Source: Ignavibacterium sp. (GTDB lineage Bacteria > Bacteroidota > Ignavibacteria > Ignavibacteriales > Ignavibacteriaceae). From it: a stretch of 64,000 nucleotides of DNA. Both the position numbers and the translations under genes were made by a program. The stretch lies in the NCBI GenBank assembly GCA_032027145.1, contig JAVSMP010000001.1, positions 2,609,116-2,673,115 on the forward strand, written 5' to 3'. Below the pieces are notes generated by a model. The model had not been told where the DNA came from and did no database searches. It saw only the letters and a program-made list of their open reading frames with translations. This document shows, piece by piece, positions 22,171 to 23,334 of this stretch. Positions within the stretch are counted from its first letter, which is position 1; each line of letters opens with the position of its first letter.

Positions 22171-22484
22171 TAAAAGTAAGTAGATTTTAGTTGCTTCATA
22201 CTTTTGAGAATTTGTTCTAAAAATCAAAAACTTAAGTAGATCACACTTTCTATCGAAAATGGATGGTTTCAAAATCTTTGATTTTAATTTCGAGACAACT
22301 CCAAAGAGATAATAACAATAACTTTTTTGAAGTTTCTATTTGTAATTTAAGTATTATCCAATTACCAAAAAATTGTTTTTAAAGTATCAATGGTATATAT
22401 TTTCAATCTATTTTTTGAAAATTATGTTTTGGGATTGGATGTTAGGTTATTCGGGGTTGAGAAATTCAAACAAAGTATAATTAT
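22171..22484. other. Intergenic region between the lol operon and the tRNA cluster
   Basis: This AT-rich stretch must hold the divergent promoters for the lol operon (minus) and the tRNA cluster (plus). No convincing hexamer pair with correct spacing, and no ORF, was found. Confidence 0.5.
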
Positions 22485-22559
22485 CGGGGCGTAGCGTAGT
22501 CCGGCTATCGCGCTTGCTTTGGGAGCAAGAGGCCGCAGGTTCGAATCCTGCCGCCCCGA
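22485..22559 (+). tRNA. tRNA-Pro (TGG)
   Basis: Full cloverleaf: acceptor CGGGGCG/CGCCCCG, D-arm, anticodon stem CTTGC/GCAAG with loop TTTGGGA (anticodon TGG at 22520-22522), T-arm GCAGG-TTCGAAT-CCTGC and discriminator A. CCA is not encoded. Its 3' half is the source of the tandem repeats that follow directly. Confidence 0.97.
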
Positions 22560-22560
22560 C

Positions 22561-23016
22561 ATAGCAGCTTAATCAATTAAGTTGTTCTTGAAAATAGTTA
22601 TCGATTTTAAGTTGTCGGCTATCGCGTCCCGATTTGATCGGGAAGGCCGCAGGTTCGAATCCTGCCGCCCCGACATAGTAGCTTAATCAATTAAGTTGTT
22701 CTTGAAAATAGTTATCGATTTTAAGTTGTCGGCTATCGCGTCCCGATTTGATCGGGAAGGCCGCAGGTTCGAATCCTGCCGCCCCGACATAGTAGCTTAA
22801 TCAATTAAGTTGTTCTTGAAAATAGTTATCGATTTTAAGTTGTCGGCTATCGCGTCCCGATTTGATCGGGAAGGCCGCAGGTTCGAATCCTGCCGCCCCG
22901 ACATAGCAGCTTAATCAATTAAGTTGTTCTTGAAAATAGTTATCGATTTTAAGTTGTCGGCTATCGCGTCCCGATTTGATCGGGAAGGCCGCAGGTTCGA
23001 ATCCTGCCGCCCCGAC
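22561..23016 (+). repeat. Four tandem 114-bp repeats carrying a tRNA-Pro-derived tRNA-like fragment
   Basis: Units start at 22561, 22675, 22789 and 22903. They are identical except for unit base 5 (C, T, T, C). Each has an AT-rich leader with a CTTAAT/ATTAAG inverted repeat, then a segment (22614-22674 in unit 1, and +114, +228, +342) nearly matching tRNA-Pro from the D-arm to the 3' end. The last 31 bases, including the T-arm and CGCCCCGAC end, match the tRNA exactly. The 5' acceptor strand is absent. The anticodon arm is replaced by a perfect 7-bp hairpin TCCCGAT-TTG-ATCGGGA. The segment is bounded by GTCGG and CCGAC, which can pair, so each unit could fold as a closed D-armless tRNA-like RNA. 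Confidence 0.95.
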
Positions 23017-23045
23017 TTTAGATGTTCAAAATTATATTCTGAGTT

Positions 23046-23119
<74 letters not shown>

Positions 23120-23142
23120 CGATATTAGATTGTTCTTTTGAT

Positions 23143-23217
23143 GGTGAGCGTAGCTCAGTTGGTTAGAGCACCAGGTTGTGGCCCTGGGGGTCGTGGGTTC
23201 AAATCCCATCGCTCACC
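23143..23217 (+). tRNA. tRNA-His (GTG)
   Basis: Acceptor GTGAGCG/CGCTCAC with the extra 5' G opposite C73 that is diagnostic for tRNA-His; anticodon stem CCAGG/CCTGG with loop TTGTGGC (anticodon GTG at 23178-23180); T-loop TTCAAAT. Confidence 0.96.
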
Positions 23218-23259
23218 CAAATGTTGTTTTAATGCGCTGTTAAATTGAAAAATTTCCTT

Positions 23260-23331
23260 GGCCCCATCGTCTAGTGGTTAGGACATCGCCCTTTCACGGC
23301 GGTAACAGGAGTTCAAATCTCCTTGGGGTCA
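23260..23331 (+). tRNA. tRNA-Glu (TTC)
   Basis: Acceptor GGCCCCA/TGGGGTC, anticodon stem TCGCC/GGCGG with loop CTTTCAC (anticodon TTC at 23293-23295), T-arm GGAG/CTCC with TTCAAAT loop. Last tRNA of the cluster; a terminator follows at once. Confidence 0.95.
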
Positions 23332-23334
23332 CTT

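Follow-up and report, generated by a model that had tools for sequence, protein, structure and literature searches.

Truncated tRNA-Pro copies in an Ignavibacterium genome and their probable link to nuclease-bearing elements at tRNA genes

The tRNA-Pro(TGG) cluster and its repeat units

The window, meaning the whole stretch of 64,000 nucleotides of Ignavibacterium sp. that was analysed, harbors a tRNA gene cluster on the forward strand in the order Pro-Arg-His-Glu. It is headed by an intact tRNA-Pro(TGG) (22485..22560; ARAGORN, and 67.8 bits with the Rfam model RF00005), the parent gene of an array of truncated copies that lies directly 3' of it (22561-23016). The array is followed by the native Pro-Arg spacer (23017..23045), tRNA-Arg(TCT) (23046..23120), tRNA-His(GTG) (23144..23218) and tRNA-Glu(TTC) (23260..23332), the last preceding a terminator-like inverted repeat and a T-run. 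In the congener G005, which has no downstream copy, a 29-bp spacer lies directly 3' of tRNA-Pro, and 22 of its 29 bases are identical to those found after the array in the source genome (by-eye count).

As the sequence-only reading had reported, the array consists of four tandem 114-bp units that differ by a single base (CAGC/TAGC); Tandem Repeats Finder gives a period of 114, 4.3 copies and 99% match (22530-23016). The units, delimited from the sequence, the repeat period and a pattern search, are all on the forward strand and lie at 22561..22674, 22675..22788, 22789..22902 and 22903..23016, with hairpins at 22627-22643, 22741-22757, 22855-22871 and 22969-22985, respectively. That the genome consists of one contig argues against a contig-edge artefact.

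Every unit holds, after a 55-bp spacer, the segment CGGCTATCGCG, which corresponds to the D-loop through the 3' strand of the D-stem (22616-22626 in the first unit). Next comes a 17-nt hairpin of the form TCCCG-N7-CGGGA, TCCCGATTTGATCGGGA, which occupies the exact place of the 17-nt anticodon arm of the tRNA, CTTGCTTTGGGAGCAAG. The last 31 nt (22644-22674 in the first unit), comprising the variable loop, the T-arm and the 3' acceptor strand, are unaltered with respect to the tRNA, and the tRNA 3' end of the fourth unit adjoins the native spacer. The units lack the 5' acceptor strand. These features agree with the earlier description of a retained D-arm remnant, T-arm and 3' end, and of a hairpin replacing the anticodon arm in all four units. 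Just 5' of tRNA-Pro (22440-22484) lies a possible decayed copy of the 5' type, ATTCGGGGTTGAG, and clearer decayed copies are present at the same upstream position in the congeners G002 and G005.

Truncated copies and hairpins at other tRNA genes

When the neighborhoods of all 43 tRNA genes in the source genome were surveyed, seven genes proved to have same-strand truncated copies, as six tandem arrays and one single copy; the pattern at the six genes other than tRNA-Pro(TGG) had been overlooked in the sequence-only reading. The four 124-bp units of Val-TAC are located downstream of their tRNA, like the four 114-bp units of Pro-TGG. The other sets are located upstream, with about ten units of 67 bp at Asn-GTT, three of 317 bp at Pro-CGG, three of 323 bp at Ser-TGA, five of 90 bp at Asp-GTC and one copy at Ala-GGC. 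A GIY-YIG nuclease of about 80-100 aa is encoded inside each Pro-CGG and Ser-TGA unit. Upstream copies retain the 5' part of the tRNA and downstream copies the 3' part. In the class-I tRNAs surveyed, the anticodon arm is, on both sides, the part lost between two retained blocks: tRNA positions 31-43 survive in no more than 12% of the upstream sets; in the downstream sets, positions 40-47, counted from the 3' end, survive in 15-18%. In the Asn and Ser copies the replaced part is the D-arm region, not the anticodon arm. Arrays of the same kind are also present at tRNA-Arg in G005. Four tandem truncated tRNA-Arg copies of that genome (L012:1772-2378) have the hairpin in place of the T-loop, not of the anticodon arm.

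Allowing at most one mismatch, the hairpin motif was found four times in the window against 0.18 expected, the first at 22627..22643. The 3.67-Mb genome contains 16 exact hairpins, versus one occurrence of the reversed control, and most of the 16 are located within truncated tRNA copies adjoining other tRNA genes. The same hairpin family is present in the Asp, Ala, Ser, Asn and Pro-CGG copies. Positions N1 and N7 are paired in 40 of the 42 distinct near-tRNA copies versus 33 of the 59 matches far from tRNAs, and both inner positions in 35 of 42 versus 16 of 59. The hairpin of the near-tRNA copies thus stays palindromic while its pairs change; the pairing itself matters or is generated, as DNA or RNA. 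The exact form is rare across the phylum (12 of 396 genomes). A hairpin-only scan of named genomes, blind to the protein, recovered copies adjacent to tRNAs and often to nuclease genes. Its matches include Christiangramia crocea, Sediminibacterium sp. C3, Cochleicola gelatinilyticus and others in the Bacteroidota, and, beyond this phylum, single genomes of Acidobacteriota, Nitrospirota, Chloroflexota and WOR-1.

The copies are polymorphic within the genus. Three units precede tRNA-Pro(CGG) in the source genome and none in G002 and G005, where the left flank, as far as the start of the tRNA, is almost the same. The tRNA-Pro(CGG) of the source genome (L217, L311) is itself a different allele from those of G002 (L317) and G005 (L313), which from the sequences may be a sign of tRNA allele replacement together with the element. 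At tRNA-Val, copies are found in the source genome, G002 and G005, and are absent from G001 and G003. Here the source genome has ORF-less 124-bp units where G002 has ORF-bearing units of 345 bp, and the former align with the 3' part of the latter, including the C-terminus of the ORF (none of 200 shuffles scored as well); therefore ORF-less units do occur where ORF-bearing ones are found. The Pro-TGG spacer has no detectable ORF remnant (72 of 200 shuffles scored as well), and in the fetched genomes and loci no ORF-bearing element was seen at Pro-TGG; shared anatomy is therefore what ties this array to the nuclease.

A small GIY-YIG nuclease beside tRNA genes

The proteins encoded by the Pro-CGG and Ser-TGA units match the Pfam GIY-YIG domain (PF01541) with E-values of 9e-15 to 3e-19, and their nearest solved structures are UPF0213 proteins (PDB 1zg2 and 1ywl). 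The catalytic residues Y5, Y16, R26, H30 and E62 are conserved at 96-99% among 107 distinct ORFs. In the source genome, intact lone GIY-YIG ORFs are found only within these two sets of units. A broken one lies 3' of the Val array. The remaining matches comprise two large proteins, UvrC-like in size with frames of 614 and 579 aa, and another broken GIY-YIG gene, which is not beside a tRNA but in a dispersed intergenic repeat (G000:C1:2112148-2112370; L239).

Homologs are encoded by 87 of 116 relatives. Loci were fetched for the 30 best matches and for 40 weaker ones picked from lower in the list, and a tRNA gene was present in 27 and 32 of them, respectively (59 of 70 combined). The estimated chance of such adjacency is about 3%, taking 33 tRNA places of about 3.1 kb each in 3.67 Mb. 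The other 11 loci have no tRNA inside the fetched stretch, some of them lying at contig ends. The isotypes found beside the nuclease are Pro, Ser, Asp, Asn, Lys, Cys, Ala, Val, Met, Arg and Gly. The ORF is mostly on the strand of the tRNA and no more than tens of bases from it, and many of the 107 distinct ORFs begin 1-2 nt past the tRNA 3' end. A truncated copy of the same tRNA lies beyond the ORF in nearly all tRNA-bearing loci, and some ORF stop codons fall in its D-loop, for example the TAG in CCCGGTTAG (L251). In a full element, the small GIY-YIG gene adjoins an intact tRNA on one side and has on its other side a truncated version of this tRNA, whose anticodon arm, or another loop, has given way to a foreign hairpin or is interrupted by one. 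Full elements harbor a GIY-YIG domain with intact catalytic residues and the array of the window does not. At one tRNA-Met of G012 (L293), a nuclease-bearing element lies downstream, and the six copies upstream, spaced by about 73 bp, have no ORF.

A nuclease tree, built on a short alignment of 86 columns with many forks unresolved, is sorted by tRNA isotype (19 changes, against a minimum of 41 and a mean of 46 for shuffled labels) and by side (7 changes, shuffled minimum 11). Grouping by isotype would be expected of an enzyme that recognizes its own tRNA gene. Pairwise dN/dS in the upstream Pro-CGG lineage is mostly 0.12-0.30, with high dS, and sequence comparison indicates that the nuclease is under purifying selection. 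Elements are widespread in Bacteroidota/Ignavibacteria and also occur in Acidobacteriota, Nitrospirota, Chloroflexota and WOR-1. The plasmid collection gave no match to the nuclease and the viral contigs no relative in a scan for close relatives, while the phage collection gave one distant match in a 484-kb uncultured phage (LR756508.1, L361), with no tRNA within 1.5 kb.

Origin of the units and comparison with known systems

The reading that we favor, at roughly two chances in three, is that the four Pro-TGG units are an ORF-less array of a family of intron-less homing-type elements whose insertion at a tRNA gene also restores that gene. The relation of the array to the tRNA-associated element family is well supported, and as an ORF-less member the array would be either non-autonomous or degenerate. 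Based on their shared anatomy, the Pro-TGG units probably descend from an ORF-bearing element. As in free-standing homing elements, the nuclease gene is adjacent to its presumed target (59 of 70 loci), and alleles with and without the element are both found (Pro-CGG and Val).

The isotype-specific lineages suggest that, in an allele lacking the element, the tRNA gene is cut by the nuclease. Recombinational repair would then copy the element in, and the element would supply a fresh tRNA end, giving a complete tRNA, while the displaced old end would remain as a truncated relic with one arm swapped for the hairpin. The hairpin, or the loss of the recognized arm, may disrupt the relic's cut site and lower recombination between relic and intact gene. 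The resulting direct repeats could expand and shrink into tandem arrays through further cutting and repair or through unequal recombination, and units could lose their ORF and yet persist. Break repair or unequal recombination would likewise have multiplied the array of the window. The odds appear even for the broader proposal that these are a new class of minimal selfish elements of about 70-350 bp, specialized on tRNA genes, whose isotype-specific nuclease lineages enter a tRNA gene and rebuild it, disable the leftover tRNA end by exchanging an arm for a hairpin, and spawn ORF-less arrays that are perhaps moved in trans.

It is unlikely, by comparison, that the units serve to yield tRNA-like RNAs (decoys, sponges or rtT-like RNAs) freed from the tRNA cluster transcript. 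They sit between co-oriented tRNA genes, they fold better than shuffled sequences (-37 kcal/mol, z -3.2), and the hairpin is kept by changing pairs, N1:N7 as well as the inner ones. The predicted fold does include the GTCGG/CCGAC closing stem of the compact D-armless tRNA-like structure proposed in the sequence-only reading, but inspection of homologous units at other tRNAs and in other genomes (L003, L205, L270) indicated that this stem is not common to them, and the structure was dropped. The same inspection found no conserved closed structure across relatives of the kind expected for a described family of tRNA-like small RNAs. The T-loop is also destroyed in some copies (L002, L004, L012), and copies upstream of Pro have decayed in L002 and L012; a family of tRNA-like non-coding RNAs, also suggested earlier, is therefore unsupported as the main reading. 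Moreover, the retained tRNA half is the 5' or the 3' part depending on the type, copy number and side vary inside one genus, and many units are made up of coding sequence. The units score 21.9 bits with RF00005, below the gathering cut-off of 29 bits, and lack both the 5' acceptor strand and the anticodon arm of a tRNA. The rtT RNA (RF00391) has no match in the window in an Rfam search at gathering or E<=1. Weak Rfam matches to YrlA, SpF41 and tmRNA, far under the cut-off, overlap real tRNAs or their copies and were set aside.

We also consider it improbable that a tRNA end was simply duplicated by slippage or recombination without any mobile element, the hairpin being a dispersed palindrome that landed there by chance. 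The near-identical tandem units and the lack of a detectable ORF at Pro-TGG would fit such an origin, and TCCCG-type palindromes do occur in a few other places, one of them in a dispersed repeat. However, plain duplication would predict neither that the anticodon arm is replaced in the same way at several tRNA genes and in different genera nor that there is a strong link to an isotype-specific nuclease. Of the earlier suggestion of a slippage or recombination amplification, the tandem multiplication stands, but the copies that multiplied belong to elements inserting at tRNA genes.

The retention of the tRNA 3' end recalls phages and integrative elements whose tyrosine integrases use tRNA 3' ends as attachment sites, this end being the part usually duplicated there. 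Scars of such elements are nevertheless a very remote explanation: many arrays duplicate the tRNA 5' end, no integrase lies beside the copies inspected, the units are tandem and of only 67-345 bp, and the linked gene is a GIY-YIG nuclease. No integrase was recognized by inspection among the ORFs around the tRNA cluster of the window, and attachment-site scars of a phage or ICE were rejected on this ground and for the GIY-YIG ORF found at other tRNAs. The earlier suggestion of repeated scars at a tRNA integration site was thus right in that elements insert at tRNA genes, but they are linked to a nuclease and not to a phage integrase. Equally hard to credit is that the arrays serve the host for dosage or as decoys against toxins or phages that cleave tRNAs, the nuclease having been domesticated for amplification; SegB of phage T6 offers a precedent (PMC13096335), but the copies amplified here, without the anticodon arm and one acceptor strand, are not functional tRNAs.

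The nearest system known for the homing-type elements favored here is SegB of phages T4/T6, a free-standing GIY-YIG homing endonuclease of T-even phages (PMC13096335; PMC2988022; Brok-Volchanskaya 2008) that adjoins phage tRNAs and drives tandem amplification through homologous recombination (PMC13096335). In both cases a small, intron-less GIY-YIG nuclease is co-located with many tRNA isotypes, and cutting here may, by analogy, similarly lead to tandem amplification of a tRNA segment by homologous recombination. SegB is a phage gene, whereas the nucleases here are encoded on bacterial chromosomes as single UPF0213-like domains of about 80-100 aa. PMC13096335 and PMC2988022 report no truncated relic, hairpin replacement, per-isotype lineages or ORF-less arrays for SegB. 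The UPF0213 or lone GIY-YIG proteins (PF01541; 1zg2, 1ywl) are the sequence family of the nuclease, and we found no description of them as tRNA-linked or mobile in open-access papers. Intron-less GIY-YIG elements are already known, but a layout that restores the tRNA and leaves hairpin-swapped relics, together with arrays lacking the ORF, appears new; these arrays, or bacterial GIY-YIG elements bound to tRNA genes, were not found described in the open-access literature. If the proposal is true, these elements would be common but overlooked parasites of tRNA genes on bacterial chromosomes, among the smallest protein-coding mobile elements known. They would give a function to many genes annotated as "GIY-YIG nuclease family protein", explain truncated tRNA arrays ignored by annotation, and provide a clear test case of how a homing nuclease can exploit an essential gene and yet spare its host. 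The per-isotype nuclease lineages would be a natural set for the evolution of GIY-YIG target specificity.

The earlier statement that no such family had been described was nearly right, the precedent for tandem repeats of a tRNA end being the 178-bp repeats of E. coli tyrT/V (rtT RNA, RF00391). Like the Pro-TGG array, they are in tandem directly after a tRNA and each contains its 3' end; they retain only about 19 bp of it, and we know of no replacement of an anticodon arm by a hairpin and no nuclease ORF in them. Elements with tyrosine integrases that target tRNAs restore the tRNA end and leave a working gene and a truncated relic, as do the elements here, which differ by the absence of an integrase, much smaller units, relics at either end, the hairpin in place of an arm and tandem multiplication. 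Rickettsia palindromic elements, REPs and MITE-like repeats are short palindromes able to sit in RNA genes, whereas the palindrome here lies at fixed arm positions in duplicated, non-functional tRNA copies, and full elements carry a nuclease gene. A dispersed repeat, TGTCATTTCGA...AGATTTCTC, also harbors variable short hairpins, one of which is TCCCGATTTTTTCGGGA (L050:800-1200; L030, oriented 1748-2160).
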